Assembly: GCA_018332375.1 (NCBI GenBank)
Contig: BOPV01000001.1
Location: 1,116,001 to 1,180,000 of the forward strand
DNA: 64,000 nt
Reading direction: 5' to 3'
Source: Roseiterribacter gracilis
Lineage (GTDB): Bacteria > Pseudomonadota > Alphaproteobacteria > BOG-932 > Roseiterribacteraceae
Shown here: positions 1-15,851 of the stretch, in pieces
How the letters are laid out: every line of letters starts with the position of its first letter
Numbering within the stretch: position 1 is the stretch's first letter
Translations under genes and position numbers: made by a program
The notes under the pieces: generated by a model
Seen by the model: only the letters and a program-made list of their open reading frames with translations
Databases searched by the model: none
What the model was told of the DNA's origin: nothing

Positions 1-663
1 CCGCGCCAGATCATCATATCCGGCAGGCTCGACGGCGTAGACGTCGGGCGGCGGCGACATACACGCCGCGATTGCGGCGACGCCCGCGGCAAGCCCGCCG
101 CCGCCACAACAAGCGAGAATCTGCGACGGCGGATCCTCGGCAGATTGCATGAAAATTTCGCATCCCACCGTCGCCTGACCAGCGATGACGTAGGGATCGT
201 CCGACGATGGAACGATGACACCGTTCTGACCGGCGGCAATCTCGCGCGCGATCGCCTCACGATCGTCGAGCCGGCGATCATAATGAACGACGCGCGCGCC
301 GTGTGCGCGCGTCGCTTCGATTTTGACGCGCGGTGCGTCGTCCGGCATCACGACGGTCGCTTCAATGCCGAGCCGCTTCGCCGCCACCGCAATCGCCTGT
401 GCGTGATTGCCCGACGACCAGGCGACGACAGGACGGCGGTCGCCGTCCTCTTGCAGTGCCTTCAACCGGTTGTACGCGCCGCGAAACTTGAACGAGCCGG
501 TCGTCTGCAGCGACTCCGCCTTTACGTAGACGCGGCGTCCGGCCAATGCGTTGAGATCTTCGTTCTCCAGCAGCGGCGTACGCACGACGACACCGGCCAG
601 ACGTCGTTCCGCGTCGGCGATCGCCGCCCGATCGACCCGCGATGCTTCGGTTTCCAGGATCAT
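1..663 (-). CDS. threonine/serine dehydratase-like PLP enzyme (3' end cut by window edge)
   Basis: Fold-type II pyridoxal-phosphate enzyme of the threonine dehydratase/serine racemase family, expected to deaminate hydroxy-amino acids in the cytoplasm. The first 221 residues are present. The PLP lysine motif SFKFRGAYN lies near residues 57-65 (Lys59), SSGNHAQ near 83-89, and the glycine-rich phosphate loop GGGG at 187-190. The ATG at 663 is chosen because an ATG five bases upstream meets an immediate stop. It lies 78 bases downstream of the DppF-like ATPase gene, but the gap holds its own promoter-like elements (TTTACA, 17 bases, TAACTG) with an operator palindrome overlapping the -10. It can therefore be transcribed separately within the same regulon. 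Substrate is unknown; related enzymes act on threonine, serine or 3-hydroxyaspartate. Confidence 0.9.
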   Translation of the reverse strand, partial: MILETEASRVDRAAIADAERRLAGVVVRTPLLENEDLNALAGRRVYVKAESLQTTGSFKFRGAYNRLKALQEDGDRRPVVAWSSGNHAQAIAVAAKRLGIEATVVMPDDAPRVKIEATRAHGARVVHYDRRLDDREAIAREIAAGQNGVIVPSSDDPYVIAGQATVGCEIFMQSAEDPPSQILACCGGGGLAAGVAAIAACMSPPPDVYAVEPAGYDDLAR

Positions 664-684
664 GTCATCCGCCACAACTGATAT

Positions 685-698
685 CTGTGATCACAGTT
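685..698. promoter_or_regulatory. operator palindrome of the peptide locus (site 1)
   Basis: CTGTGATCACAGTT, with the perfect palindrome TGTGATCACA at 686-695. It overlaps the -10 (TAACTG, 699-694 on the minus strand) of the promoter of the threonine dehydratase-like gene, a geometry that suits repression. The same 13-base core recurs at 7165, 14807 and 14829. A GntR-family regulator encoded in the locus (11626-12399) is the likely binder; that assignment is inference. Confidence 0.75.
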
Positions 699-741
699 AC
701 GTTGAGCGAGCTTCGCTGTAAACCGTCCTTTTGTTACGAAC

Positions 742-1506
742 TCAGATCGCGGGCTGCATTTGCGCCGCTTCGGTCAGGCGGCGCGTATAGGCTTGTGCGG
801 GCGCGGCAAAAATCTGGTCGGACGCGCCGGTCTCGACAACGCGTCCGTGTTGAAGCACCAGAACGCGCTCGCACATATGCCGCACGACGGCGAGGTCGTG
901 GCTGATAAAGAGGTAGGTCAGCCCGTGCTCGCGGCGCAGGTCCGACAGGAGGTTCAGGATCTGCGCCTGCACGGTAAGGTCGAGCGCCGACGTCGGCTCG
1001 TCCAGAATCAGCACGCGCGGCTGCATGAGCAACGCACGCGCGATGCAGACGCGCTGGCGTTGCCCGCCCGAAAGTTCGTGCGGCAAGGACTGCAGATGCT
1101 CGTCGCGCAAGCCGACAGCGCGCGCCGCCGCGACGACAAGATCGTCGACCGCCCTGCCCTGCAATACGGTTCGCGCCATCGCGCGGGACAGAACCTCCAG
1201 CGGTTCGGCCAGCAGACGGCGCACCGGGCGTCGAGGATTGAGCGCTGCAGCGGGATCCTGAAACACCATCTGCACCGTCGGCCACGGCGCAGTGGACGGC
1301 GCGATGTCGATCGTGCCTGCGCTCGGCTGCAGCAAGCCCGCAATCGCCTGGCCGATCGACGATTTCCCCGAACCCGATTCACCGACCAGCCCGACAGACT
1401 CGCCAGGCGCGAGGTTGAACGTCACGTCCTGCGCGGCGACATGCGTCGCGCGACCGCTGCGAAAGACGATCTGCAGCCCGTCGGCGCGCACCAGGCTAGC
1501 TTGCAT
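742..1506 (-). CDS. peptide ABC transporter ATPase (DppF/OppF-like)
   Basis: Second nucleotide-binding subunit of a DppBCDF-type importer, on the cytoplasmic face of the inner membrane. Walker [10 protein letters not shown] is near residues 42-50, the signature LSGGQ near 145-149, and Walker B with LILDEPTSALD near 166-176. At 254 residues it is shorter than the usual 320 or so and lacks most of the C-terminal oligopeptide-transporter extension. It begins 11 bases before the end of the DppD-like gene, so the two are probably translationally coupled. Last gene of the leftward operon before the separately promoted dehydratase. Confidence 0.93.
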   Translation of the reverse strand: MQASLVRADGLQIVFRSGRATHVAAQDVTFNLAPGESVGLVGESGSGKSSIGQAIAGLLQPSAGTIDIAPSTAPWPTVQMVFQDPAAALNPRRPVRRLLAEPLEVLSRAMARTVLQGRAVDDLVVAAARAVGLRDEHLQSLPHELSGGQRQRVCIARALLMQPRVLILDEPTSALDLTVQAQILNLLSDLRREHGLTYLFISHDLAVVRHMCERVLVLQHGRVVETGASDQIFAAPAQAYTRRLTEAAQMQPAI

Positions 1507-2449
1507 CGCTGCCTCCCGCGCCCGCCTTCCAACAGCGCGCGATATGCACGTCGCCTTCGACCGTCAACGCTGACGGCGTATGGCAGCGCGCTTCAACAAG
1601 CGCGCACCGGTCGGCAAAGCGGCAGCCGGTCGTGACGGCAGCGAGCGGCGGCACGAATCCGTCGATTGCAGGAATTGCTGCGCCGCGCGCAACGCGATCC
1701 GGCCGCGACGCCAGCAACGCGCGCGTATAGGGATGACGCGGCGCGGCCAATACCTGCGCGGTCGGCCCTGCTTCAACGATCCATCCGCCATACATGACGT
1801 ACAGTCGCGCCGCCATATATGCGACCACGTTGACATCGTGCGTGATCAGCAACACACCGAGATTGCGCTCGCGCGCCTGGTCGCGGATCAGGCGCAAGAC
1901 GTCCAACTGTACCGTGACGTCCAGCGCGGTCGTCGGCTCGTCGGCAATCAGAAGCGACGGCGTTCCGCTCAACGCCAATGCGATCACCACGCGCTGGCGC
2001 ATGCCGCCACTGAGCTGGTGCGGATAGGATCGCAAGACGCGTTCTGGATCGGGCAATTCGAGCTGGGCCAGCAACGTCGCCGCATGCTGCCGTGCAGTGG
2101 CGCGGTCGGCATCGCGCCGTGCCCGTATCGCGTCGACGAGTTGACGGTCGATCCGCAGCGCCGGATTCAACGCGCTCATCGGCTCCTGGAAAATGAATCC
2201 GACCTGCGCGCGACGTGATGCACCTTCCACGCCGCCGACGCGAATGGCGCCGGCCACCGTATGGCCCGTCGCTTTCGGTAGCAGACCCGCGATCGACAAA
2301 GCCGCGAGCGATTTTCCCGACCCCGACTCGCCGATCAGCCCGACGATCTCGCCCGCCCCGACGCACAGATCGACGTCATTCAGCGCGCGCAGTCGGCGCG
2401 TGCCGACATCCAGCGTGAATTCTGCAACCTCCAACGCCAGCGCGGTCAT
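1496..2449 (-). CDS. peptide ABC transporter ATPase (DppD/OppD-like)
   Basis: First nucleotide-binding subunit of the same importer, 317 residues. Walker A GESGSGKS is near residue 40, LSGGMRQR and [12 protein letters not shown] follow, and the C-terminal oligopeptide-transporter region contains the cysteine-rich GCRFADRC segment typical of DppD/OppD. Start ATG at 2449 overlaps the DppC-like stop as ATGA. Longer upstream extensions of the frame run through the permease gene and are not credible. Partner of the adjacent DppF-like ATPase; which peptides are carried cannot be read from it. Confidence 0.93.
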
Positions 2450-3261
2450 CGCGGCCTCTCGCGCGGATCGAGCAGATCGCGCAGCGCGTCGCCCAGCAAG
2501 GTGAACAAGGAAACGGTGACGGTGATCGCCGCACCCGGGAAGAACGAATACCACCAGTGTGAAAACAAGAAGCTGCGGCTGGCGCTGATCATCGCGCCCC
2601 ATTCCGAGGTCGGCGGTTGCGCGCCGAGGCCGATGAAGCTGAGGCTGGCCGTTGCAAGCAACGCCGCGCCGACATTGCCAGTGGCATAGACGAGCAAGGG
2701 CGGCAGCATGTTGGGCAGCAGGTTGGCGCGGATCTGATGCAGGTTCGACGCCCCCATCAGACGCGCAGCTTTGACGTAGTCGCGCCCGACGATCGCCAAC
2801 GCTTCGGCGCGCGCAACACGGGCATAGACCGGGATCGACAATAGGCCGATGGCAAGCACCGCGTTGCGAAGATTGGGGCCCAGTGCGGCGGCCAAAGCCA
2901 GCGCGACGATCAAGGACGGCACCGACAGGATCGCGTCGATCATGCGCATCAACGCGCTTTCGACCCAACCGCCGACCAGCCCTGCGAAGCCGCCGATCAA
3001 CATGCCGCCCGTCAGGCCGATTGCGATCGTCGACAAGGCCGCCAGCAGCGACACGCGCGCACCGAAGACGATCCGCACGAACAGATCACGCCCGACGTCG
3101 TCGGTGCCGAACCAATGCAACGCACTGGGCGGCAACAGGCGCTGATCCAGCTCGACGTGATTGGCGGGTCCCGCGAACAAGGCGGGGCCCAGCAGCGCGA
3201 TCAGGATGATCGCGCCGCAACCAGCCGCGGCGAATAGCAATCCAGGTCGCAGCTTTGCCAT
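2446..3261 (-). CDS. peptide ABC transporter permease (DppC-like)
   Basis: Inner-membrane permease, 271 residues, of the binding-protein-dependent transport (BPD) superfamily. An N-terminal membrane segment (LLFAAAGCGAIILIALLG) is followed by the extracytoplasmic segment with HWFGTDDVGRDLF, which is characteristic of DppC/OppC proteins, then about five further membrane spans and the EAA loop region (EALAIVGRDYVKAARLMGAS). It starts one base after the DppB-like stop codon and overlaps the DppD-like gene by four bases. Confidence 0.93.
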   Translation of the reverse strand: MAKLRPGLLFAAAGCGAIILIALLGPALFAGPANHVELDQRLLPPSALHWFGTDDVGRDLFVRIVFGARVSLLAALSTIAIGLTGGMLIGGFAGLVGGWVESALMRMIDAILSVPSLIVALALAAALGPNLRNAVLAIGLLSIPVYARVARAEALAIVGRDYVKAARLMGASNLHQIRANLLPNMLPPLLVYATGNVGAALLATASLSFIGLGAQPPTSEWGAMISASRSFLFSHWWYSFFPGAAITVTVSLFTLLGDALRDLLDPRERPR

Positions 3262-3262
3262 C

Positions 3263-4279
3263 TCAACCAGCCGGCGCGCGCAAGCGCGGATCGATGCAGC
3301 GATAGGACAGGTCGATCAGCAGATTGATCACCGCATAACCGATCGAAACGAACAGGGTCACGCCCATGATGACGGGAAAGTTCAGATCGAGAATCGCGTC
3401 GAGCAAGTACGAGCCGATACCCGGCCAGGCAAAGACCGATTCGACTGTGACCGAGCCGAACAGCAGCCCTGCAAGCTCAAGCCCTGCGATCGTGACGAAT
3501 GGCAGCAACGCGTTGCGCAGTGCATAGACCGACAGAATGCGCGCTTGCGAGATTCCGGCAGCACGCGCGGTGCGGATATGGTCTTGCGCCAGCACCTCGA
3601 TCATCGCGGCGCGAATGATGCGCGCGAACGTGCCGATATTTCCGATCGCCAGTGCCGCGACCGGCAGCACGAGATGCGCCGTCGCATCGCGCAGCAAACG
3701 CCAGTCGCCACGCAACAGGCTGTCGAGCGTCAGCAACCCTGTCAGCTCGTGCGGCGTCAGACCGGGCGACAATCGTCCCGATGGCGGCGCCCATTGCAGC
3801 GCGCCGTAGAACAACCCGAGCAACAGCATCGCAACCCAGAAGCGCGGCGTCGAAATCGCAACCGTCGACAGGCCACGCAACACCGTATCGAGCGGCGACG
3901 GGCGCGCAGCGGCGGCGATCACACCCAACGGCACCGCAACCGCAACGGAAAGCAGCAGCGCCAACCCCATCAATTCGATCGTGGCTGGCAGACGATCCAG
4001 GATTTCGCGCAACACCGGCTGACCGGTCACGATCGAGGCGCCCAGATCGCCATGCAGGAGTGCCACGACATAGGTGGCATATTGCTCGTGCAGCGGCCGA
4101 TCGAGCCCCAACGCATGCCGTAGCTGCGCAACTTCGGCGGCCCCCGCACGCGGCCCCGCAATCAATTGCGCCGGATCGCCAGGGATCACGTGCGAGATCA
4201 CGAAGGTCAGAATTGTGACCGCGATCAACACGACAAACGTCGCAAGAACACGCCGGACCAGAAACGACGCAGCCGCCAT
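3263..4279 (-). CDS. peptide ABC transporter permease (DppB-like)
   Basis: Inner-membrane permease, 338 residues, heterodimer partner of the DppC-like protein. The N-terminal span (FLVRRVLATFVVLIAVTIL) and the motif HVIPGDPAQ are typical of DppB/OppB. The EAA loop reads EVLAQDHIRTARAAGIS, and the C-terminus ends in DLSYRCIDPRLR, another family hallmark. Start ATG at 4279 shares one base with the amidase stop (TAATG), so the longer upstream frame is rejected. Imports the ligand delivered by the binding protein encoded at 9073-10596. Confidence 0.94.
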   Translation of the reverse strand: MAAASFLVRRVLATFVVLIAVTILTFVISHVIPGDPAQLIAGPRAGAAEVAQLRHALGLDRPLHEQYATYVVALLHGDLGASIVTGQPVLREILDRLPATIELMGLALLLSVAVAVPLGVIAAAARPSPLDTVLRGLSTVAISTPRFWVAMLLLGLFYGALQWAPPSGRLSPGLTPHELTGLLTLDSLLRGDWRLLRDATAHLVLPVAALAIGNIGTFARIIRAAMIEVLAQDHIRTARAAGISQARILSVYALRNALLPFVTIAGLELAGLLFGSVTVESVFAWPGIGSYLLDAILDLNFPVIMGVTLFVSIGYAVINLLIDLSYRCIDPRLRAPAG

Positions 4280-5694
4280 TAGAGGATCGGCGCGCCCAGC
4301 GCCCATGGATGTGCCTGTTCGTAGAGATGTGCGGCACGCAGCAGAACTTCGTCGCAATGGCGGCGTCCGGTGACCAGCAACCCAACCGGCAATCCGGCAC
4401 GCGTCACCCCCGCCGGCACGGAGATCGACGGTAGCCACGCGACGTTGGCGAAGATGGTGAACGGTTCGGCGTTGGTGTCGCGCGCATCGCGTCCTGCAAC
4501 CTCGATCGGCATCGGGCCTTCGGCGCGATAGGGCTCGGTCGCTGCCGTCGGACACAACAACAGGTCGATGTCGTCGAACAATTCGCCGACCTCACGCGCC
4601 AGGCGCGTCAGGCGACGCTGCGACGCTTCGAGGTCTTCCAGCGTCGTATCCGCAAACCGTTGCAGCAGATCGCGCGGGCCGCCGCTGATCGCATCCGGTG
4701 CGACCGGCCATAAACCGTCCTGTCGCAACCGCGCTTCCAGCCGGTGCGCCGCGAACCGCGCCCAATCGGGATAGGTGTTGGTCAAGGCGATGCTGCGTTC
4801 GACCTGCACCAATTTTGCGGCGCGCATGAAGTCGCGTGCGGCTGCTTGCACAATCTGCGCGATTTCAGGATCGACGGGTGCAAAACCAAGATCGGGCGAC
4901 CAGACCGTCTTGCAGCCCGCCACGTCCAGCAAGTCGATCGCGCGTTCATAGTTGATTGCCGGTCGCGGCAGGCTCATCCGATCGTTCGGACTGGGTCCTG
5001 CGGCAACGTCGAGATGGCGCGCTGCGTCGCGCACCGTCAGCGTCAACGCGCCGGCGCAACTCATATCCGACATACCGCTGGGGCGTCCGATCCGGCCGTG
5101 CGTCGATTTCAATCCGACGAGACCGGTGAAGGCTGCAGGTACGCGAATTGACCCACCGCCGTCGCTGCCGGTTGCGAACGGCACCAATCCGCCCGCAACC
5201 GCCGCCGACGAACCGCCGCTGCTGCCGCTCGGCGTACGTTCGAGGTTCCAGGGATTGCGCGTCGTGCCGAACGCCACCGTGCTGGTGACTCCGTCGAGCC
5301 CGAATTCAGCCGTCGCGGTTTTTCCAACCGGCACCGCCCCCGCTGCGCGCAGCCGCGCGACATGCGGACTGTCCTGCGTCGCAACCACCGGCGGATACAG
5401 GCCCGTACCGCTGCTGGTCGGCATCAACCTGCAATCTTCGTTGTCCTTGATACCGAACGGAACGCCGGCCAGTGGCCCGACATCTTCACCGGCAGCGATG
5501 CGGCGATCGATCGCCGCCGCCGCTGCGCGTGCTTCGGCGGGGTCGAGATGCACGAACGCGTTCAGCCGTGGATTTCCGTCGCCGATGCGAGCCCAGAAAT
5601 GATCGAGCACCTCGACCGCACTGATGCGCCGTTCTCGAACTCCTGCCGCGATCGCGACCGCGGTCGCGCCCACCGTATCGAAATCACGTGCCAT
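4279..5694 (-). CDS. amidase (amidase-signature family)
   Basis: Serine hydrolase of the amidase-signature family, 471 residues, hydrolysing C-N amide bonds; cytoplasmic, with no signal peptide seen. The catalytic Lys-cisSer-Ser set is visible: Lys in GIKDNED, and the serine- and glycine-rich signature GSSGGSSAAVAGG followed by GSDGGGSIRVPAA. Length is normal. It overlaps the amidohydrolase gene by 11 bases and the DppB-like gene by one. Lying between a secreted hydrolase and an importer, it plausibly cleaves the imported amide or peptide. Exact substrate unknown; GatA is unlikely because no gatB or gatC is adjacent. Confidence 0.92.
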   Translation of the reverse strand: MARDFDTVGATAVAIAAGVRERRISAVEVLDHFWARIGDGNPRLNAFVHLDPAEARAAAAAIDRRIAAGEDVGPLAGVPFGIKDNEDCRLMPTSSGTGLYPPVVATQDSPHVARLRAAGAVPVGKTATAEFGLDGVTSTVAFGTTRNPWNLERTPSGSSGGSSAAVAGGLVPFATGSDGGGSIRVPAAFTGLVGLKSTHGRIGRPSGMSDMSCAGALTLTVRDAARHLDVAAGPSPNDRMSLPRPAINYERAIDLLDVAGCKTVWSPDLGFAPVDPEIAQIVQAAARDFMRAAKLVQVERSIALTNTYPDWARFAAHRLEARLRQDGLWPVAPDAISGGPRDLLQRFADTTLEDLEASQRRLTRLAREVGELFDDIDLLLCPTAATEPYRAEGPMPIEVAGRDARDTNAEPFTIFANVAWLPSISVPAGVTRAGLPVGLLVTGRRHCDEVLLRAAHLYEQAHPWALGAPIL

Positions 5695-7054
5695 GTGCGG
5701 CCTTGCGAACGACGCCGCCCTGCATCACCAACGCGATCTGTTTGACGTCCTGCATGTCCTTCAGCGGATTGCCGCGCACCGCGACCAGGTCGGCAATCTT
5801 GCCCGGCTCCAGCGTGCCGATATCGGCAGACAGGCCAAGCAGGTCGGCGCCCGCCACTGTCGCGGCGCGCAACACGTCTTTCGTCGTCATGCCTGCATCC
5901 ACCATCAAAATCAGCTCTTCCGCCTGCTCTTCGAAGGGCGAGAAGGCGCAGTCGGTCCCGAGCGCGATCTTGACGCCGCCTTGATAGGCAAGCCGCAGGC
6001 TTTCGACCTGGCGCCGATAGACTCCCTGCGCCACATCCTTGTTGACGCCACGATTTGCCGACGCGTTGGCCCACTCGTGCGGCGCCGACATGGTCGGGAC
6101 GAAATATGCACCGGTTTTGCGGAACAGCCGCACCGCTTCTTCGTCGATCACCGTGCCATGCTCGATCGAATCGACGCCGGCTTTCAGAGCGGCGATTACC
6201 GACCGGCCGCTGATCGCATGCGCCATGACTTTGCGCTTCAGCCCGTGCGCCGTATCGACGATCGATTTCAACTCGTCGTCGGTGAAGTTGGCATCGGGAT
6301 AGCCCGGCAACATCACGTTCACGCCGCCCGACGCTTTGATCTTGATCACGTCGGCACCGGAGTTGACGACGCGGCGTACGGCTTTGCGACAACCTTCGAC
6401 GCCGTCGCAGATATTGTCGGCGAACTCGGCGCGCAGCAGCGCAATGATTTCGGGGCGCCAGTTGCGCGGATCGCCCTGCACGCCCGTCGGCCCCAACGGC
6501 TGCCCCGCCTGGATCAAACGCGGCGCAACGATAAGTCCCGCTTTGACCGCTCGCTTCAGCGCGTCGCCAACGGTTTCCGTCAGCGACCCTGCGTCGCGCA
6601 CCGTGGTGAATCCATTCTCGACGACGATGCGCGCGTTGTTGACGCTGGCGATCGCAATGTCCGAGTCGGAATTCGCAAAGCCGCCAAGCATGCCTTCGGC
6701 CGGCGCGGCTCGCCCGGTGACCAGCGCTTCAAGATGGATATGCGCGTCGATCATGCCGGGAAAAACGAACTTGTCCTTGAGGTCGATCAGCTTCGCATCG
6801 GGCGCACCGATCTCGCCCGGCGACACGAATCCCGCGCGCAGTTCGGCAATACGCCCGTTGCGCACGACGATTGTCTGGTTGCTGACCGGATCGGTCCCGG
6901 GCACTGCCAGCACTGTGCCGGCATGAATGACCGACACGCCGTCGGCGAGTTGCGGCGCAATCGGGCCCAGCATGGACCGCAGCGGCTCAGCATCGCTCGA
7001 AAGCGCGGCGGCCAATGCAACGAACGCAACCAGACACCCCAAAACACGTCGCAT
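5684..7054 (-). CDS. secreted metal-dependent amidohydrolase (imidazolonepropionase/prolidase-like)
   Basis: Amidohydrolase-superfamily TIM-barrel enzyme of 456 residues. An N-terminal signal peptide (MRRVLGCLVAFVALAAALSSDAEP) predicts export. Metal-binding HAHIHLEAL lies near residue 100. DVIKIKASGG, around residue 230, should supply the carbamylated or metal-bridging lysine seen in this subgroup. MAHAISGRSV and DSIEHGTV supply further metal ligands, and LGTDCAFSPF the catalytic aspartate. The subgroup includes Xaa-Pro and other dipeptidases and imidazolonepropionase-like enzymes. First gene of the leftward operon; a GGAGG ribosome site precedes the ATG. An operator palindrome lies 111 bases upstream, between this gene and the divergent S9 peptidase. 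Confidence 0.9.
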   Translation of the reverse strand: MRRVLGCLVAFVALAAALSSDAEPLRSMLGPIAPQLADGVSVIHAGTVLAVPGTDPVSNQTIVVRNGRIAELRAGFVSPGEIGAPDAKLIDLKDKFVFPGMIDAHIHLEALVTGRAAPAEGMLGGFANSDSDIAIASVNNARIVVENGFTTVRDAGSLTETVGDALKRAVKAGLIVAPRLIQAGQPLGPTGVQGDPRNWRPEIIALLRAEFADNICDGVEGCRKAVRRVVNSGADVIKIKASGGVNVMLPGYPDANFTDDELKSIVDTAHGLKRKVMAHAISGRSVIAALKAGVDSIEHGTVIDEEAVRLFRKTGAYFVPTMSAPHEWANASANRGVNKDVAQGVYRRQVESLRLAYQGGVKIALGTDCAFSPFEEQAEELILMVDAGMTTKDVLRAATVAGADLLGLSADIGTLEPGKIADLVAVRGNPLKDMQDVKQIALVMQGGVVRKAAHGT

Positions 7055-7131
7055 TCCGACCTCCGGCCCGATGATTCAATTAGCCATGCACCCGTTCGGC
7101 GTACAAGATTTCTTCCAAGCAGAACTTAATG

Positions 7132-7177
7132 GTGACAAGCCGTTCGTCGCTGTATAACGTGATTTGTGATCACAGTT
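7132..7177. promoter_or_regulatory. divergent promoter region with operator palindrome (site 2)
   Basis: TGTGATCACA at 7165-7174, flanked by a 3' GTT as at the other sites, lies between the divergent amidohydrolase and S9 peptidase genes. For the rightward unit a TATAAC element is at 7153-7158 with a weak GTGACA at 7132-7137 (15-base spacing), placing the operator at the expected transcription start. For the leftward unit TATACA-like bases on the other strand would put the operator near the -35. The promoter elements are weak; the operator is clear because it is an exact repeat. Confidence 0.7.
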
Positions 7178-7201
7178 CAACGGCAATACGAGGAACCGCA
7201 A

Positions 7202-9076
7202 ATGACCCGCCGGGTCGTCCTTCTGACCGCTTTGCTATGCGCCGTCGGCGTCGCAGGCCAGGCTCATGCCGCGCGCCTGACGGCGCAGCAGCTTGTCGAG
7301 CTCGGCGCATTCGACGGACTCGCTTTGTCGCACGACGGGCGCAGCTTGCTGGCCACGGCGACAGGCGCAGGCCGGCCCGCGACGGTCAAGATCGACGTCA
7401 AAACCGGCGCGCTGCAACGCGCTCCTGCGAGCGAGAAAGCGGAATTCGCAGTCGATTGGTTTCCGGATGACGCGCGCATCCTGATTTCACGGAACGAAGG
7501 CGACAGCGAAGCGACGCATCTCTTTGTGCGTGATCAGCACGGCAAGGACCGCGACCTGACGCCGGCGAAAGGCGCGCAAGGCAAATTCCAAGGCTGGGCG
7601 AAAGACGGGAAATCCTTCTTCGTCAGCACCAACGAGCGCGATCCCGCTGCGATCGACCTCTACGAATACGACACGACGACGATCGAACGGCGACTGCGCT
7701 TTCGCGGCGACGGCTATGTGATGGGTCGTACCCAGCGCGCAGCGATCAGCGCTGGGAAAGACCTGATCGCAGTCGAAAAGGTGCTGGGCTTCGCCGACAG
7801 CGAGGTCCACGTCATCGACATGGCGAGCGGCCGCACGGTCGCGTCGATTCCTTCGCAGCAATCGACCAACATCCCGCTTTTCTTCGAGGCTGGCGGCAAG
7901 GCGCTGTATTACATCAGCGACGCCGGCGGCGAGCATGTCGTGCTGCGCCGCTTCTCCTTGGTCGATCGACAGGACCGTGTCGAACTGGCCGTTGCGGGCG
8001 CCAGCATTCACCTCGCGCTGCCGTTGCCGGACGGACGCATGGTCGTGGTCTATGACCGCGACGGACGCAGCTTCATTCGCCTGCATGGACCGCGCGGCGA
8101 CACGGACATCGCAATTCCGGCCGGCCTTCTCCATCCCGTGTCGATCACGCGCGATGGACGCTACGCCGCTTTCACGCTGCAATCGCCATACGCGCCATCG
8201 AGCCTGTATGTGATCGATCTCGCCGGCAAAGGCAGCTTGCGCCAACTGCACGTCGCGGGCGCGCCGACCTTGGCCGGCGTCGATCTGCCGGAGGTTCGGG
8301 CCGACTCGTTCACCAGCTCGGACGGGCTGCGTATCCCGGTCATCGCGTATCGTCCGCCGACGGGCGTGCAGCTACGCGGCGCCTTGTTGTGGGTACATGG
8401 CGGGCCCAGCGGACAGTCCGCGTTCGAATTCAACCCGATGCTGCTGTATCTCGCAGCCAACGGATACGCGGTGTACGCGGTCAACCATCGCGGTAGCAGC
8501 GGCTACGGTAAGAATTTCCAGCATCTCGACGACCTGAAACAAGGCGAAGGCAACGTTCGCGACCTGATCGAAGCAAGACAGGCGATGATCGACGCCGGCC
8601 TTTCGCCAGACGGGCGCGTCGCGATCATGGGCGGCAGCTTCGGCGGCTTTCTCACCTTGTCCGCCGCAATTCAGGCGCCGGATGCATGGTCGGCCGTGAT
8701 CGATTTGTTCGGCCCGACCAATTGGGATCGCACGATGCAAGTGATGCCGGCGTCATGGGCGGCGCGGCGCATCGGCTTCCTCAAAAAGATCGGCGATCCG
8801 GCGCCGGATGGCGGCGCCTATCTACGGTCGATCTCGCCGCTGTTTCGCGCGGCAGAGATCCGCGCGCCGTTGCTAGTGCTGCAAGGCACCGACGATCTTC
8901 GCGTCGTCAAACAGGAATCCGACGATCTGGTCGCTGCGGTCGAAGCCGCAGGACGGAAAGTCGACTATGTCGTGTTGGCTGGCGAAGGCCATGGCTGGCC
9001 GATGCAACGCGACAACCAGTTGACGACGCTGGCGCGGATTTCGGGCTTTCTCGACTTGCACGCCGCGGCACGATGA
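7202..9076 (+). CDS. secreted S9-family prolyl-oligopeptidase-like peptidase
   Basis: Serine peptidase, 624 residues: signal peptide (MTRRVVLLTALLCAVGVAGQ, cleavage after AHA), a beta-propeller-like N-terminal half with repeated strand motifs, and a C-terminal alpha/beta-hydrolase domain. The nucleophile is in GGSFGG, the acid in GTDDLR and the histidine in GEGHGW. The ATG at 7202 is chosen: GAGGA is 8 bases upstream, and the longer frame from 7166 would start inside the operator. It releases short peptides in the periplasm, which suits the peptide importer encoded next door. It overlaps the binding-protein gene by four bases (ATGA). Confidence 0.93.
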   Translation: MTRRVVLLTALLCAVGVAGQAHAARLTAQQLVELGAFDGLALSHDGRSLLATATGAGRPATVKIDVKTGALQRAPASEKAEFAVDWFPDDARILISRNEGDSEATHLFVRDQHGKDRDLTPAKGAQGKFQGWAKDGKSFFVSTNERDPAAIDLYEYDTTTIERRLRFRGDGYVMGRTQRAAISAGKDLIAVEKVLGFADSEVHVIDMASGRTVASIPSQQSTNIPLFFEAGGKALYYISDAGGEHVVLRRFSLVDRQDRVELAVAGASIHLALPLPDGRMVVVYDRDGRSFIRLHGPRGDTDIAIPAGLLHPVSITRDGRYAAFTLQSPYAPSSLYVIDLAGKGSLRQLHVAGAPTLAGVDLPEVRADSFTSSDGLRIPVIAYRPPTGVQLRGALLWVHGGPSGQSAFEFNPMLLYLAANGYAVYAVNHRGSSGYGKNFQHLDDLKQGEGNVRDLIEARQAMIDAGLSPDGRVAIMGGSFGGFLTLSAAIQAPDAWSAVIDLFGPTNWDRTMQVMPASWAARRIGFLKKIGDPAPDGGAYLRSISPLFRAAEIRAPLLVLQGTDDLRVVKQESDDLVAAVEAAGRKVDYVVLAGEGHGWPMQRDNQLTTLARISGFLDLHAAAR

Positions 9077-10596
9077 CAGCAACGATCCGGCGGCGCGCAT
9101 TTCTACATACAAGCCTGGCTGCGGCCGGGCTTGGCGTGCTGCCCGGTTCGATGGCACGCGCGCATGGCACGTCGACGTCGCTGGTGATCGGCCGCGCGAT
9201 CGAAGCGACGACGATTGATCCCGCACGTACGACACGCATGTCGGATTTCGGATCGATTGCGCTGGCCTATGAAACGCTGACCTCGCTGCGTCTTGCCGAC
9301 GGTGTTCCAACCGCGGATCTTGCGCCCGCGCTGGCGGCGACCTGCAGCTCGGACGACAACGTGACATGGCGGTTTCGCCTTCGCGCCGGTGCCCGGTTCG
9401 CGAATGGCAGCGCCGTTGACGCCGACGCGGTTGCGCGCAGTTTTGCGCGGCTGTTTCAGGCCGATCAGGGCCCGGCTAAGGCCTTGTCGTTCGTGCGCAA
9501 TGTCAGCGCCCGCGACGGCGAGGTCGAAATCACGCTCACAGCAGCCCTGCCCGCCTTTCCGCTGCTGCTCAGCTTGCCGATGTTTGGCATCGTCGACGCA
9601 CGCGCATCGGACGATCCATCCTGGTTCGCAACCAACAGCGCCGGGTCGGGTCCCTACCGCCTGTCGTCCTGGCACCGCGGCACCGAACAGATTTTCACCG
9701 CCGCGCGCGACCTGCCGTTCGACACCGTCATCTTCCGCACCATTCGCAGCAGCCTGTCGCGCGTCGGCGAGCTGCGCCAAGGCGACATCGATTTCGCGGA
9801 AAGCCTGTCGCCCGACGAAGCCGATCTGCTTGCCGCCTCGCCGGGCGTGACGATCGCGAGCGGCGCCGGCGCAGCGTTGACCTATCTCGAAATGAACAAC
9901 CAGCGCGCGCCGTTCACCGACCTGCGCTTTCGCCAGGCCGTCGATGCAGCGCTGAATCGCGAAGCCATGCTGGCGCATCTGTTGCGCGGGCATGGGCGCA
10001 TCCCAGCCGGCTTGTTGCCGGCGGGTGACACGGCATCGACACGCCCACGCTACGATCCGCATGCTGCTGCTGCGCTGGCGCGCGCGGTCGGTGCGTCACT
10101 CACGCTGACGCTCAACTACATTCCCGCCGATGCTTTGACGGACGCGCTCGCGGTGACGATCCAAAGCAATCTTGGCGACGCCGGTATTCCGGTTACGTTG
10201 CAGCCGCTCTCCGCCTCCTCGTTCGGCGCCAAAGTGCGATTTGCTGGCGACTTCGATCTGGCGCTTCGTGATTACACGGCGGATTTCCCGGATCCCTGGA
10301 TCGTTCTCGATTTCTTGTATGCATCCAAGAATATCGGCCCGTCGGGAAATCTCTCGCGTTATGCCTCGCCCACGGTCGATGCGCTGCTCGATCGCGCCGC
10401 ATCGTCGCTCGACGCGGCACCGCGCGCTGCGCTGTATCGCGACGCCGAAGCCGCCATTCTCGCCGATACGCCGCACGCCGTTCTGTTCTGTCGCGACGCG
10501 TTGATTGCCGCGCGCAGCGACCTGCGCGGGCCGATGCCAAGTTTCTGGCAGCCGCAAATTTATCCGGCTGCGTTTCTTTCACGAACTCTTCGCTGA
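9073..10596 (+). CDS. ABC transporter substrate-binding protein, family 5 (DppA-like), Tat-type signal
   Basis: Periplasmic solute-binding protein of the peptide/nickel family, 507 residues, matching usual length. The N-terminus has a twin-arginine-type signal (RRRAFLHTS, then a hydrophobic stretch ending SMARA). Typical family features are the early YETLTSL segment, WRFRLRAGARFANGS, and the C-terminal DFPDPWIVLDFLYAS. It supplies ligand to the DppBCDF-like membrane complex encoded leftward across the divergent promoter, so one importer is split over two operons that share an operator. Start overlaps the peptidase stop. Ligand specificity cannot be read by eye. Confidence 0.93.
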   Translation: MTATIRRRAFLHTSLAAAGLGVLPGSMARAHGTSTSLVIGRAIEATTIDPARTTRMSDFGSIALAYETLTSLRLADGVPTADLAPALAATCSSDDNVTWRFRLRAGARFANGSAVDADAVARSFARLFQADQGPAKALSFVRNVSARDGEVEITLTAALPAFPLLLSLPMFGIVDARASDDPSWFATNSAGSGPYRLSSWHRGTEQIFTAARDLPFDTVIFRTIRSSLSRVGELRQGDIDFAESLSPDEADLLAASPGVTIASGAGAALTYLEMNNQRAPFTDLRFRQAVDAALNREAMLAHLLRGHGRIPAGLLPAGDTASTRPRYDPHAAAALARAVGASLTLTLNYIPADALTDALAVTIQSNLGDAGIPVTLQPLSASSFGAKVRFAGDFDLALRDYTADFPDPWIVLDFLYASKNIGPSGNLSRYASPTVDALLDRAASSLDAAPRAALYRDAEAAILADTPHAVLFCRDALIAARSDLRGPMPSFWQPQIYPAAFLSRTLR

Positions 10597-10602
10597 GGGG
10601 CG

Positions 10603-11562
10603 ATGCCGTCTTCTTCTGTGCAAATCGTTGCAGTTGTCGGCTGCGGCACGATCGGAACCAGTTGGGCCGCCTGTTTCGCGCGCGCCGGCCTGACAGTTCG
10701 TCTGTTCGATGCAGATCCGGCGCGACCGGCGTTTGCACGGGCCGAAGCGATCGAGATGCTGCGCGCTTCGGGCGACGTCACGGGCGGCGACGTCACTGCG
10801 CTGCAGGCGCGGATTCAACTTGCCGACACGCTCGAACAAGCGGTGCAGAACGCCGACTACGTACAAGAGAATGCGCGCGAACAAGCCGGCGAAAAGACGG
10901 CGCTGTTCGAGCAACTCGATGCGCTGGCGCCACCCGACTGCATTCTCGCAAGCTCGTCGTCGGCGATCCTGCCGTCGAGCTTTCTTGCCGGTCTGCCGGG
11001 CCGGTCGCGCTGCCTGGTCGCGCATCCGTTCAACCCGCCGCATCTGATCCCGGTCGTCGAACTGGTCGCGCCCGCCTGGGTTGCACCTGAAATCCTGGCG
11101 CGCACGGCGACCTTTCTTGAGTCGATCGGACAATTGCCGATCTATGTTGCGCGCGAAGTCGACGGCTATGTCGGAAACCGACTGCAGGTCGCGGTCGTCA
11201 ACGAAGCGATGGCGTTGATCGATCGCGGCGTCGTCAGCCCCGGCGACCTGGATCGTTGCGTCACGCAGGGCCTTGGTTTGCGCTGGGCCTTCATCGGTCC
11301 GTTTGAGACAATGGATCTCAACGCACCGGATGGCTTCGCCGGTTATGTCGGGCGGTTCGGCGACAGCTATCAACAACTCGGCCGCACGTTGGCGCTCGAC
11401 TCGCCGTGGTCGCAGGAGGCAATCGACCGCGTTGCTGCGTGGCGGCGATCGGAACTTCCACTCGCCGATCTCAAACAGCGGCAGGCATGGCGCGACGATC
11501 TGATCCTGCGCATCCGTGCGCTCGTCGCAAATGCCGACGCGGTGACAAGCTCCTCGCGGTAG
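10603..11562 (+). CDS. 3-hydroxyacid dehydrogenase of the lambda-crystallin/L-gulonate dehydrogenase type
   Basis: NAD-dependent dehydrogenase, 319 residues, of the 3-hydroxyacyl-CoA dehydrogenase superfamily. Rossmann motif GCGTIGTSWA lies at residues 14-23. The SSSSAILPS, AHPFNPPHLIPVVEL and DGYVGNRLQ segments, together with GLGLRWAFIGPFETMDLN, are those of lambda-crystallin-like and carnitine-dehydrogenase-like enzymes. Those oxidise free 3-hydroxy acids rather than CoA esters; this is family knowledge, not proof. GAGGGG lies just upstream of the ATG, six bases after the binding-protein stop. Its presence suggests the imported compound contains or yields a 3-hydroxy acid. Confidence 0.85.
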   Translation: MPSSSVQIVAVVGCGTIGTSWAACFARAGLTVRLFDADPARPAFARAEAIEMLRASGDVTGGDVTALQARIQLADTLEQAVQNADYVQENAREQAGEKTALFEQLDALAPPDCILASSSSAILPSSFLAGLPGRSRCLVAHPFNPPHLIPVVELVAPAWVAPEILARTATFLESIGQLPIYVAREVDGYVGNRLQVAVVNEAMALIDRGVVSPGDLDRCVTQGLGLRWAFIGPFETMDLNAPDGFAGYVGRFGDSYQQLGRTLALDSPWSQEAIDRVAAWRRSELPLADLKQRQAWRDDLILRIRALVANADAVTSSSR

Positions 11563-11625
11563 ACCTGCAAAGACCCGCCGAGTACGATGCCGGCTCGGTT
11601 CGGCACTGTTCGGAGGCATTTGGAA

Positions 11626-12399
11626 ATGCAGCTCGTCTCAACGGAGACGGTCTACAGCCGCGTTTATGCGGAAGTCCGCGACGCGCTGATGTCAGGCGCC
11701 TTCCAACCCGGTGAACTGGTCACCATCCGCTCGCTCGCCCAACGGCTTGGCACCAGCCCAATGCCGATCCGCGACGCGCTTCGCCGTCTGCTGGCCGAAA
11801 ATGCGCTGGAGACGCAGCCCAACCGGACCGTGCGCATTCCCGTACATAACGCCACCAGCACCAAAGACCTGCTCGAAGCGCGATGCGCGCTCGAAGGCAT
11901 GGCGGCTGCGAAAGCGGCGCACGTCATTACACCGGCCGAACTGTCGAAGATCGAAAAGATTCATGCGGCGGCGCTGCGTGCGTTGGCCAAAGAGGACACG
12001 GCCGAGTATCTGCGCCAGAATACTTTGTTCCATCGCACGCTGTACGCGGGCGCGCATTCCAACATTCTTCTGCCGCTGATCGAGTCGCTGTGGCTGCAAT
12101 ATGCGCCGGTCATGGCCCTGTCGATGCGCACCATCGAAGCGACGCAGAAAGACTGGCGGCGCGTCGGCGATCAGAACCACCAGGAAATTATCAAAGCACT
12201 TCGCAACCGCGATGCGCGCGCCGTGCGGCGTGCGGTCGAAGCCGACATTATGGAACCGACCAAACTTCCCGGCTTCTGGAACTTGTTCACGTTGCCCGGT
12301 TATGGAACGGCCCCCAAACGGCGCCGCCGTTCATCATCGACGACGCAGAAGCCAACGACCGATACGAAAAAACGAGTCGCGTCGCTTCGTACGAGCTGA
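11626..12399 (+). CDS. GntR-family transcriptional regulator with FCD ligand domain
   Basis: Winged-helix regulator, 257 residues. The N-terminal GntR HTH includes VYAEVRDALMSGAFQPGE and the recognition region AQRLGTSPMPIRDALRRL. The C-terminal all-helical FCD domain (from about LLEARCALEGMAA) includes FHRTLYAGAHS and NHQEIIKALRNRDA, which carry the usual metal/carboxylate ligand histidines. The ATG at 11626 is preferred over 11587 because GGAGG lies 9 bases upstream. Last gene of the rightward operon; it probably senses a pathway carboxylate and binds the four TGTGATCACA sites of the locus. Whether it represses or activates is unknown. Confidence 0.9.
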   Translation: MQLVSTETVYSRVYAEVRDALMSGAFQPGELVTIRSLAQRLGTSPMPIRDALRRLLAENALETQPNRTVRIPVHNATSTKDLLEARCALEGMAAAKAAHVITPAELSKIEKIHAAALRALAKEDTAEYLRQNTLFHRTLYAGAHSNILLPLIESLWLQYAPVMALSMRTIEATQKDWRRVGDQNHQEIIKALRNRDARAVRRAVEADIMEPTKLPGFWNLFTLPGYGTAPKRRRRSSSTTQKPTTDTKKRVASLRTS

Positions 12400-12401
12400 A
12401 C

Positions 12402-12434
12402 AAAAAGACGCGGACCGGCACATGGCCGGCCCGC
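12402..12434 (-). terminator. intrinsic terminator of the TonB receptor gene
   Basis: A 10-base-pair stem with one mismatch (GCGGACCGGC at 12410-12419, loop ACATG, GCCGGCCCGC at 12425-12434) is followed on the minus strand by TTTTT (12406-12402). It lies 17 bases past the TonB receptor stop and between convergent genes. Confidence 0.7.
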
Positions 12435-12450
12435 GCCGTTGCGGATCTTG

Positions 12451-14724
12451 TCAGAACTTCGCGCGTACTTGGGCACCGACCTGGCGGGGAGGTGTAATGG
12501 TCCAGAACAAGGATCCATCCGGTGACGCTGATGTGCCGACGACCGACAACGAGTTGAAGATGTTCTTCACGAAGAGGCCCGCTTCCCACCACGTGCCTTC
12601 GACCGACAGGTTGATGTTGGTCTGATAGACGCGGTCGCGTGCATTGTTGCCCGATGGCGCACGCAGGTCGGTGTAGAAGCCGCCGGTATAGTGATAGTCG
12701 ATGCCGAGATTGCCGGTGAGACCGTCAACCAGCGGCCGGCGATACATCGCACCGACATTCCAGGTCAGCTCAGGCACACCCGGAATTGGACTTCCCGCCT
12801 TGCTGCCGACGATGTTCGGCGACGCCTGATCCAGACGCGCATGCGCATAGCCCAAGCCCGCATTGATCTCGAGATCGTCGAACGGACGCAGACGGACTTC
12901 CAACTCTCCACCACGGCTCGACGCCGCGCCGCCATTGGTGCGGTAATTGAACCCGCATTGCAGCGACTGCTGTAGCTGGATCTGCGACCAGCGGATCAGA
13001 TAGCCGGTCGCGTTCACCATTACGCGATCGTTGAGCCACGCATTCTTGGTCCCAAGTTCGTAGCTCCACAGCGAATCCGGATTGAACCCTTTCGGCGACG
13101 AGCTCAGCCCCAGCGCCGCGAGGTCGTTGCTACAGACTGCAGTCGGAACGACGTAGTTGCCGCCACCCGCGCGATAGCCCTTCGCCGCGCTGGCATAGAC
13201 CATGTGGTCGGGATCGAACTGGTACGCGACCACGCCTTTCGGATTGGTACCTTCATACGAAATCGAGCCAAAGGTCGGCGGCGCCAGACCACCATTGAGG
13301 AATCCGTCATTCTGGTCGCGGAATTTCGAACGGCCGTCATACCGGCGCACACCCGCCGTCACCGACAACGCGTCGGTGATCTTGTAGGTCGCCTCGCCGA
13401 ACTCGGCGAGTTCGTAGACTTTCTTGTAGGCCGCTTTGGCGAAGAACAGATCGTTCGCGACCGCATTGGCACCGGTCAGGCCCAGCGCACGCGAAAAGCC
13501 GGGCGTCTGCGCCAGAACCGACGCGGCTTCCGAGTAACGGTTGTAATAGACGCCCGCGATCCATTGCAGCGGACCATTGCCGTTCGACGTCAAACGCACT
13601 TCCTGCGTGACGCTGCGCGGCTGACTGGTCGTGTTGAATCCAGTCGTCTGCGCGTCGCCGAAGATCGAACTCAACAGCCGCGTGAAGTCTGTCGATCCGG
13701 TCGCCTTGCGCTGCACCCAGGAGGTGGTGGACAGCAACTTGGCCGGGCCGAAATCATATTCAGCGGTCAGGTTGGCGATCGTCGCCGCGTCGGTGTGCGG
13801 TTCGTTCTGCGCCGTCGAAACTGCGGTGCGATCTTTGCCGTAGCGCGAATCGACCTGCCCGACATTGGCGTAGCGATCGTCGAACGCGTTGAACTGCAGC
13901 GACACGCGCAGTTGGTCGGTCGGCGTGAACAGCAAAGCCAGACGACCGCTGCGCAGGTTGGCGCTGTCGATGTCTTCCTGGCCCGCCGCGAGCGCCGCTT
14001 TTACGTCCGGCTGCAGACTGCGCAACCGCAACAGCGCGTTGTCGGGAACCCGATCGACGAAGCCGCCGAGATGCCGGTAATAGCCGTTCAGGCGCGCCGC
14101 GACCTTGCCTTCGACAACCGGCACGTTGAGAACGGCATCGACGCCGTAGCCGGTCGAACCGCCATCGGTTGAAGTCAACAGTGCGTGCGCTTTGCTTTCC
14201 CAGCGATCCAACTGCGGCTGGTTCTGCAGAATGCGGATCGTGCCGCCCATCGAACTGGCGCCATACAACGTGCCCTGCGGCCCGCGCAGCACTTCGATCC
14301 GCGCGACGTCGAAAATCGCGGGATCTGACGCGCCGGTGCGATTGTCGTCGGTCGTAAGCGGTGTCTCGTCGAGATAGAACGACACGGTCGCACCCGACCC
14401 GGCGAGATTGGGAATGCCGCGCAATGCAAAGCGCGTTTCACCCGGACGGTCAGCGGTGAAGGACAAACCCGGAATGCCACGGGCGTAGCCTTCGATGCCT
14501 TCATAGTTGAGCGCTTCGATCTGGCGCCCGGTCACGACCGACACCGCTTCCGGAACTTCCTGCAGCCGTTGCGCGCGCTTTTGCGCGGTCACGACCACCT
14601 CTTCGACCTGCGCCCAGGCCGGGTCCGGATGTGCGGCAAACAAACCGATCGCAGCGACCACGGTCGCTTGAATCAGCCGGCCAGGATTCGAGCGCGCGCG
14701 GCGCCCGGTTCGGGTTTCGTCCAT
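12451..14724 (-). CDS. TonB-dependent outer-membrane receptor
   Basis: Outer-membrane active transporter, 757 residues. A signal peptide (ending near HPDPAWAQ) precedes a TonB box (EEVVVTAQK). The plug domain includes GIPGLSFTADRPGETRFALRG, IEVLRGPQGTLYGASSMGGTI and a long beta-barrel. The C-terminus ends in the aromatic QVRAKF expected for a barrel. The IEVLRGPQG and Q-rich barrel style match receptors abundant in Sphingomonadales and Caulobacterales. Two operator palindromes lie about 83-115 bases upstream, linking it to the peptide locus, so it likely imports the same class of large ligand across the outer membrane. An intrinsic terminator follows. Confidence 0.94.
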   Translation of the reverse strand: MDETRTGRRARSNPGRLIQATVVAAIGLFAAHPDPAWAQVEEVVVTAQKRAQRLQEVPEAVSVVTGRQIEALNYEGIEGYARGIPGLSFTADRPGETRFALRGIPNLAGSGATVSFYLDETPLTTDDNRTGASDPAIFDVARIEVLRGPQGTLYGASSMGGTIRILQNQPQLDRWESKAHALLTSTDGGSTGYGVDAVLNVPVVEGKVAARLNGYYRHLGGFVDRVPDNALLRLRSLQPDVKAALAAGQEDIDSANLRSGRLALLFTPTDQLRVSLQFNAFDDRYANVGQVDSRYGKDRTAVSTAQNEPHTDAATIANLTAEYDFGPAKLLSTTSWVQRKATGSTDFTRLLSSIFGDAQTTGFNTTSQPRSVTQEVRLTSNGNGPLQWIAGVYYNRYSEAASVLAQTPGFSRALGLTGANAVANDLFFAKAAYKKVYELAEFGEATYKITDALSVTAGVRRYDGRSKFRDQNDGFLNGGLAPPTFGSISYEGTNPKGVVAYQFDPDHMVYASAAKGYRAGGGNYVVPTAVCSNDLAALGLSSSPKGFNPDSLWSYELGTKNAWLNDRVMVNATGYLIRWSQIQLQQSLQCGFNYRTNGGAASSRGGELEVRLRPFDDLEINAGLGYAHARLDQASPNIVGSKAGSPIPGVPELTWNVGAMYRRPLVDGLTGNLGIDYHYTGGFYTDLRAPSGNNARDRVYQTNINLSVEGTWWEAGLFVKNIFNSLSVVGTSASPDGSLFWTITPPRQVGAQVRAKF

Positions 14725-14793
14725 CCCACTCCCCTTATCGTTCTTCGCCGGCGCCCCCGCCGCCGATCAAAGCTAAGCGGCACCAAAACCCTC

Positions 14794-14841
14794 CCGTCAA
14801 GTGATCTGTGATCACAGTTAGCGGTTTTTGTGATCACAGTT
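14794..14841 (-). promoter_or_regulatory. TonB receptor promoter with two tandem operator palindromes (sites 3 and 4)
   Basis: TGTGATCACA occurs at 14807-14816 and again at 14829-14838, each followed by GTTA, 22 bases start to start (two helical turns on one face). On the minus strand a TTGACG -35 (14800-14795) lies just downstream of site 3, with a poor -10 (TTAGCT) about 18 bases on. The operators therefore sit upstream of the -35, unlike sites 1 and 2 that overlap -10 or start regions. The rest of 14725-15014 shows no gene. Confidence 0.7.
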
Positions 14842-15014: not shown

Positions 15015-15851
15015 CTATCTGGCGGCGCGCACCTTCTCGACCATGCGCTTGATCGCATCGAGCACGACGTCGGGCTTGTCGCGCCAGACGAAGTGACCGG
15101 CGCCGGGAACGAAGATCTCTTCGCGGGCTGGCGATGCAGCAGCGAATGCAACATGGGCGCGGCGCAGCGCCTGATTGCGCGCCTCGGTTTCGCCCCAGCT
15201 TTTCTCGGCAACGATGTCGATGACCGGCATGGTGGCCGGGAAATCGACCTGGCGCACGCGCTTGACCGTATCGCCATATCCTAACAATTGCGGGATCAGA
15301 ACGCGGGCCGCATCCGGCTTGGCCTTCTCCAACTCGCCGAATTGCGGCTGGTACAGATCCAGTAGATGTTTGACCTCGGCCTCGTCGAAGAACGACGCCA
15401 GGTTGGCGTCGACCAGCACGACGCCGGCAATGCGTTTGTCGGTGGCCGCCATCAACTGTGCGATAAAGCCGGCATAGGAATGCGCCACCAGCACGACCGG
15501 CGCACGCACTTCGCACAGATCCAACGCACGCTGCAGCGACGCAACCGTCGTATCGATGCTGAACGGACCTGGTTGCAGCTCGCTCTTGCCGAGCCCCGCA
15601 CGATCATAGACCACCGTGCGCACGCGGGCGGCGGCGCGCACCTTCTCGGGGATGTCGCCCCAGGCGGTGGAGTCGTTGCCGCTGCCGGCTTCAAACAGCA
15701 CGGTGGGCGTCCCCGCGCCGCTGGTTTCGATCCAGATTTTGTGATCACCGACATTGACGCGCTCGGCGCCGGCCCTGCTGCAGCTCGGCGCCGCGTTGGC
15801 GACGCCATGGATCAGCAAAGCGCCAAGGGCACCGGCAAGAATCTGTTTCAT
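15015..15851 (-). CDS. secreted alpha/beta hydrolase
   Basis: Alpha/beta-hydrolase-fold protein, 278 residues with a signal peptide (MKQILAGALGALLIHGVANA). The nucleophile elbow is AHSYAG, the oxyanion/early motif LFEAGSGND, the acid probably in the VIDIVAEKSW region or LVDAN, and the histidine in PGAGHFVWRDKP. The reaction cannot be assigned; esterase, lipase-like or aminopeptidase activities all occur in this fold. It lies upstream of, and in the same direction as, the TonB receptor, but 290 bases and the operator region separate them. It is divergent from the M20 peptidase gene. Confidence 0.85.
   Translation of the reverse strand: MKQILAGALGALLIHGVANAAPSCSRAGAERVNVGDHKIWIETSGAGTPTVLFEAGSGNDSTAWGDIPEKVRAAARVRTVVYDRAGLGKSELQPGPFSIDTTVASLQRALDLCEVRAPVVLVAHSYAGFIAQLMAATDKRIAGVVLVDANLASFFDEAEVKHLLDLYQPQFGELEKAKPDAARVLIPQLLGYGDTVKRVRQVDFPATMPVIDIVAEKSWGETEARNQALRRAHVAFAAASPAREEIFVPGAGHFVWRDKPDVVLDAIKRMVEKVRAAR

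Follow-up and report, generated by a model that had tools for sequence, protein, structure and literature searches.

Here we report that a 64,000-nucleotide stretch of the Roseiterribacter gracilis genome (hereafter the window; contig BOPV01000001.1, positions 1,116,001 to 1,180,000) contains four exact copies of the palindrome TGTGATCACA at 686, 7165, 14807 and 14829, and that the genome has no further exact copy. All four are intergenic and lie in the control regions of a single locus that encodes predicted peptidases, a Dpp-type transporter, a TonB receptor and an FCD/GntR protein. Judging from sequence, this FCD/GntR protein is very probably an autoregulated, effector-responsive regulator that binds TGTGATCACA at its own locus and controls four transcription units, likely as a repressor at sites 1 and 2. 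We infer the binding of the local protein to the four sites, which is well supported, as well as the sign, the effector and the substrate of the regulation. The operators and the regulator gene are as follows (G, C, L and f numbers are our handles for genomes, contigs, loci and families).

Operator 1, 686..695: TGTGATCACA between the dppF stop (742) and the start of the co-directional dehydratase gene (GTG 675 or ATG 663)
Operator 2, 7165..7174: in the gap shared by the divergent amidohydrolase gene (start 7054) and S9 peptidase gene (start 7202)
Operator 3a, 14807..14816: upstream of the TonB receptor gene (start 14724)
Operator 3b, 14829..14838: 22 bp from 3a, about two helical turns
Regulator, 11626..12399, plus strand: GntR/FCD protein with PF00392 and PF07729; open reading frame (ORF) open from an ATG at 11587

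An initial annotation of this DNA had listed the four intergenic palindromes, each followed by GTT on the plus strand, and all were found as described. On the minus strand, all four sites read AACTGTGATCACA, continued by GAT, AAT, GAT and AAA, respectively; the flanks are thus alike as well as the palindrome. The same annotation took the palindrome to be rare by chance, in agreement with 100 dinucleotide shuffles of the window, which gave a mean of 0.07 copies and a maximum of 1 against the four seen. The genome scan that it proposed returned no unrelated exact copy. In the source genome (G000; 4,249,070 bases in 3 contigs, 99.58% complete), chance alone would predict about 4.6 copies when the shuffle mean of the window is scaled up, or 1.6 from base composition; despite this expectation, not one lies outside the 14-kb locus. 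The reversed-pattern control gave 0 matches and is a weak one because the reversed pattern contains CTAG, which is scarce in many bacteria.

The regulator encoded inside the locus, also named in the initial annotation, scores above the cut-offs of both domain models (PF00392, 56.7 bits against 27; PF07729, 80.2 bits against 24.3). Its gene is the last of a unit inferred from gene spacing, S9-dppA-HCDH-gntR (HCDH, 3-hydroxyacyl dehydrogenase), so that the palindrome of site 2 precedes the regulator's own inferred unit, as in TGTGATCACA-associated FCD regulators. A search with the GntR protein alone covered 398 genomes of the phylum, 42 of which, the source genome included, matched at E 1e-30; the best locus was fetched with 1.5-kb flanks from 29 of the 41 other matching genomes (35-45% identity). 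In the 300 bp preceding the regulator gene, TGTGATCACA is the most frequent of the 1024 possible palindromic 10-mers, with 14 of 29 loci compared to three for the next best. Several of the 29 loci are closely related to one another, and the six families spanned by the 14 loci are the safer figure. Extending the region to 1400 bp gives 18 of 29 loci (runner-up palindrome, 4), and 20 of 29 have the site anywhere in the fetched locus.

The same-genus genome G004 has four related FCD genes. One of them (32% identity) is separated from a TonB receptor gene by CGTGATCACA and TGTGATCACA, 21 bp apart, the latter being the single exact copy in that genome. Three genomes of the same family that gave no GntR hit at E 1e-20 (one of them only 65% complete) contain no copy of TGTGATCACA. 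Among plasmids, 68 records matched, and seven annotated neighbourhoods were selected from them. Five contain the exact palindrome, which precedes gntR in Skermanella, Mesorhizobium and Cupriavidus and a different gene in Aminobacter and A. vitis; in Cupriavidus, a further exact copy lies in front of a second unit of the locus. The remaining two have a copy with one mismatch directly upstream of gntR. No close GntR orthologue was found in searches of 5 genomes of the order and of 385 and 398 genomes (best identity 43-45%), nor was an orthologue of the whole cluster found in the sampled genomes with GntR and DppA queries; the larger samples (385 and 398 genomes for GntR, 372 for DppA) overlap, and scoring was limited to the top few candidates of each genome. 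As a separate observation, TGTGATCACA pairs with a spacing of exactly 63 bp, or about six helical turns, are present near FCD genes in eight of the nine fetched loci of family f194.

Loci of family f194 with 63-bp pairs: L018, L020, L022, L026, L027, L028, L029, L033

The opposite search, from operator to regulator, used the flank consensus WWYTGTGATCACARWW, derived from 37 distinct sites, including the four of the window. It matched 39 times in 28 of 398 genomes (reversed pattern, a weak control, 3). The source genome has the most matches, four, but its window sites helped to build the motif. An FCD gene lies within 1.5 kb in 15 of the 28 fetched operator loci. Among the 16 genomes outside the motif derivation, this applies to five, and three more (G594, G672 and G708) have an FCD gene in larger stretches, the match in G708 being weak (106 bits, 2 kb away). 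Eight of the 16 therefore have an FCD gene, two more have sucC pairs and six are without explanation. The further sites of G550 have no FCD gene within 1.5 kb. The sucC pairs consist of exact TGTGATCACA copies spaced by 21 bp in front of sucC; they occur in G594, G543 and G253, members of one family in the same class as the window genome. The sucC gene was identified by its NCBIfam model in G594 and G253 and by eye in G543. In G594 and G543, such pairs are also located near genes in sdh position, as read from ORFs. The sucC and sdh pairs probably belong to the regulon of AkgR, an FCD/GntR regulator that acts on central carbon genes, with tricarboxylic acid cycle genes among its targets.

L165, pairs 21 bp apart: 4155/4176 and 9043/9064; sdh-position genes also present
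L167, pairs 21 bp apart: 10036/10057 and 16986/17007; sdh-position genes also present
L168, pair 21 bp apart: 9925/9946

We propose a regulatory scheme for the locus based on these sites and their positions. The regulator would bind TGTGATCACA (consensus, WWYTGTGATCACARWW) in three control regions within the locus that encodes it and would thereby control the amidohydrolase-amidase-dppBCDF, S9-dppA-dehydrogenase-gntR and dehydratase-S58 peptidase units and the TonB receptor gene. These are the units that the initial annotation had placed behind the sites, extended by an S58 aminopeptidase gene just outside the window. In the absence of an inducer, the protein would most likely repress at sites 1 and 2, and it would be released by a small acid formed from the peptide or amino acid taken up. 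Operator 1 ends 10 bp (GTG 675) or 22 bp (ATG 663) before the predicted dehydratase start, and the distance from the end of operator 2 to the presumed ATG of the S9 gene is 27 bp; since a promoter hardly fits downstream of either site, bound protein should block the polymerase. Operator 1 is flanked by genes on the same strand and may therefore act on a promoter inside a longer transcription unit. At the amidohydrolase promoter (start about 110 bp from operator 2) and the TonB receptor promoter, both repression and activation are possible. Operators 3a and 3b lie about 80-115 bp from the TonB receptor start, between it and the stop of an alpha/beta hydrolase gene at 15015, and this pair may accommodate two dimers on one DNA face. 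In an alignment of FCD domains, N..[FL]H, a further H and, last in order, a D are common to the window protein and its relatives; the more distant FCD row L011 has H in place of the D, which may reflect a different ligand pocket.

The genes around site 2 form two divergent units, amidohydrolase-amidase-dppBCDF and S9-dppA-HCDH-gntR, whose members overlap or are closely spaced. The genes other than gntR are listed below.

1..675, minus strand: pyridoxal phosphate-dependent dehydratase of the threonine dehydratase/serine racemase family (PALP PF00291), extending beyond the window
L005:6577-7659, outside the window: S58 aminopeptidase (PF03576, 366.4 bits for L005:6577-7842), downstream of the dehydratase gene and overlapping it
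742..1506, minus strand: dppF-like ATP-binding cassette (ABC) ATPase
1496..2449, minus strand: dppD-like ABC ATPase; internal ATG taken as start, aligned with other dpp operons
2446..3261, minus strand: dppC-like permease; best NCBIfam model D,D-dipeptide permease, below its cut-off
3263..4279, minus strand: dppB-like permease; internal ATG taken as start
4279..5694, minus strand: amidase-signature amidase (PF01425)
5684..7054, minus strand: amidohydrolase (PF01979; NCBIfam NF051886 below cut-off) with a hydrophobic N-terminus
7202..9076, plus strand: S9 prolyl-oligopeptidase-family peptidase (PF00326) with a hydrophobic N-terminus
9073..10596, plus strand: dppA-like family 5 solute-binding protein (SBP_bac_5 PF00496)
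10603..11562, plus strand: lambda-crystallin-type HCDH (3HCDH PF02737; reaches the NF004783 cut-off)
12451..14724, minus strand: TonB-dependent receptor (TIGR01783, E 1e-32, below the model's cut-off)

From its protein families, the locus appears to serve the use of peptides or amides. The best solved relatives of the dehydratase include serine racemase and threonine deaminase; the S9 peptidase is related to an amino acyl peptidase, the amidase to aryl acylamidase and, further down, 6-aminohexanoate cyclic dimer hydrolase, and the HCDH to lambda-crystallin. Solved relatives of the amidohydrolase include Xaa-Pro dipeptidase, arginine carboxypeptidase chains, Cc2672 and ochratoxinase. The nearest solved chains of the S58 protein are D-aminopeptidase, the aminopeptidase 1b65 (DmpA) and the beta-peptidyl aminopeptidase BapA. 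An aspartic-protease-like gene (L005:5732-6580, minus strand; TIGR02281 far below cut-off) overlaps the end of the S58 gene and is possibly part of the dehydratase-S58 unit. In another part of the window, a very long minus-strand ORF (59152-64000) has, as judged by eye, numerous HAMP-like repeats and, after them, stretches that resemble a histidine kinase and a receiver.

The source genome has 14 FCD genes. The recognition helix reads S-P-M-P in the window regulator and S-D-M-P in the protein encoded at C1:234938, and no other of the 14 has S-x-M-P; the protein of C1:3099101 has S-V-T-P, and the remaining 11 are divided between S-R-T-P (five) and different motifs (six). The C1:234938 gene encodes the nearest paralogue (36% identity to the window regulator) and adjoins a TonB receptor gene. 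The intergenic region of this FCD-TonB module carries ATTTGATCAAAT (C1:235777; L044:8778), as does its counterpart in G004 (C10:3626; L042). Because ATTTGATCAAAT is upstream of the paralogue and is kept in G004, this closest rival for the window sites most likely reads a different operator, and ATTTGATCAAAT is possibly a diverged, insulated one. The related palindrome TTTGATCAAA occurs twice in the source genome, the second time between genes (C1:3707130). In a bolder and less likely reading, the window locus would be a dedicated, insulated regulon for an unusual peptide or amide with beta-, D- or omega-amino-acid bonds, taken up via TonB and Dpp, the two related FCD-TonB modules being kept apart by a change of one base in each half-site of a common operator (TGTGATCACA versus TTTGATCAAA).

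Two residue patterns were rejected as markers of TGTGATCACA binders. S-x-M-P is present in 20 of 21 alignment rows with a site and in 7 of 13 others, yet FCD proteins with T-P adjoin exact sites in G585, G674 and G594. The lack of an Arg two residues before the helix Pro holds for all 21 site rows but also for 12 of the 13 no-site rows. As for the transporter, the best DppA matches (34% and 32% identity; class sample of 372 genomes) are both located in dppABCDF clusters, one of which also encodes an S58 protein (44%). In these two partly similar clusters we found no FCD gene, and 19 kb contained no site with up to one mismatch, which fits a local regulon; the clusters are distant and few.

Several observations weigh against the local FCD/GntR protein as the regulator of these sites or against repression by it. 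Nine of the 29 relatives have no exact TGTGATCACA within 1.5 kb. G031, with the closest GntR protein by score (43% identity), has 0 exact copies genome-wide, and the single copy in G460 (43% identity) is on another contig than its gntR. In the protein tree, site-bearing relatives are distributed over several separate clades, and the window protein is in no well-supported clade with them. The eight FCD-associated genomes among 16 are a raw count, part of which may reflect chance proximity of FCD genes, and the fetched stretches of G603, G591, G216, G616, G498 and G683 contain no FCD gene or known target. The source genome has 31 further places that match TGTGATCACA with one mismatch (control, 5); 23 were rated coding by ORF length and GC content at third codon positions (22 of 29 outside the window, one of two inside), and eight of 31 were not, so weaker sites may exist elsewhere in this genome. 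The three control regions gave no sigma-70-like hit in a consensus promoter scan, and the repression argument therefore rests on distances to predicted start codons. In addition, AkgR, whose sites include the same core, is called an activator (PMC6365646).

This last point, together with the 21-bp pairs at sucC (three genomes) and near sdh-position genes (two), which resemble the 22-bp pair at the TonB receptor promoter, would favour activation at all sites of the window. We regard that as unlikely, as 10-27 bp separate the ends of sites 1 and 2 from the predicted dehydratase and S9 starts, where a place upstream of a -35 element is improbable unless the starts or promoters are elsewhere. A second alternative assigns the four sites to another FCD paralogue, as the real or an additional binder. 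The C1:234938 protein would be the obvious choice, being the nearest paralogue and having the same S-x-M-P helix, but its own region carries ATTTGATCAAAT, kept in G004, and its fetched stretches have no TGTGATCACA even at one mismatch. Moreover, the window regulator is encoded within the unit that site 2 would control, and we consider a role of the paralogue very unlikely.

A third explanation, half-site pairs of a CRP/FNR-like protein or a chance repeat unrelated to GntR, is suggested by TGTGA and TCACA, the half-sites of CRP, which recur as halves of the window sites. CRP half-sites are separated by 6 bp (TGTGA-N6-TCACA), whereas those of the window abut with 0 bp between them, so the CRP/FNR spacing is not found here. 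Exact copies are also confined to the locus, and the upstream regions of related FCD genes are enriched in the palindrome, leaving this explanation a next to negligible probability.

We therefore retain local control by the FCD/GntR protein. The local regulon proposed in the initial annotation is supported by the confinement of the sites, by 14 of 29 relatives, by the site-free genomes without a GntR hit and by the site-free dpp clusters. The annotation had named sites kept in relatives without the regulator as a sign against it. None was seen in the three same-family genomes or the two dpp clusters, and the six operator genomes without an FCD gene in the fetched stretch count on the other side. 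The locus offers a compact, testable case, with one regulator, four identical operators and no other exact copy in the genome, and the paralogue with its probably diverged operator provides a built-in control. More broadly, the data suggest which operator is used by a wide range of proteobacterial FCD regulators that have yet to be characterised.

The target genes of Escherichia coli McbR differ from those of the window locus. McbR is an FCD/GntR protein and, by sequence, the best solved relative of the window regulator (PDB 4p9f). FCD-HCDH-ABC clusters in G646, G728 and G191 (loci L184, L178 and L179) have the operator ATCTGTGATCACAGTT, identical over 16 bp to the first and third of the window sites, and HCDH homologues 41-45% identical to that of the window. 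They differ in that their ABC system is of the branched-chain-amino-acid type, as read from ORFs, and they have no match to the peptidase or amidase genes of the window; the G646 cluster also has a 3,5-dioxohexanoate-cleavage-type enzyme. AkgR has central carbon targets, whereas the window regulon is one peptide locus. AkgR of Rhodobacter sphaeroides (Imam 2015, as cited in PMC6365646), described as an activator, has GTGATCAC among its sites, the core common with the window sites. The likely AkgR pairs at sucC (21 bp, three genomes of the same class) resemble the 22-bp pair of the window. According to PMC6365646, the GTGATCAC palindrome is conserved upstream of the deoxyribonate gntR gene PS417_07240 of Pseudomonas simiae and its own cluster, for which local regulation was proposed, as we propose here; that cluster serves deoxyribonate oxidation and has one reported site (-47 to -40), unlike the window locus (PMC6365646). 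In literature searches for TGTGATCACA, GTGATCAC, TGATCACA and TGTGATCA, judged by titles and abstract openings, only PMC6365646 was relevant, and nothing was found for this locus. The operator class is thus already known, and this locus is a new member with a regulon that is new as far as searched, linking the operator of AkgR and the deoxyribonate GntR protein to TonB- and Dpp-dependent peptide use.

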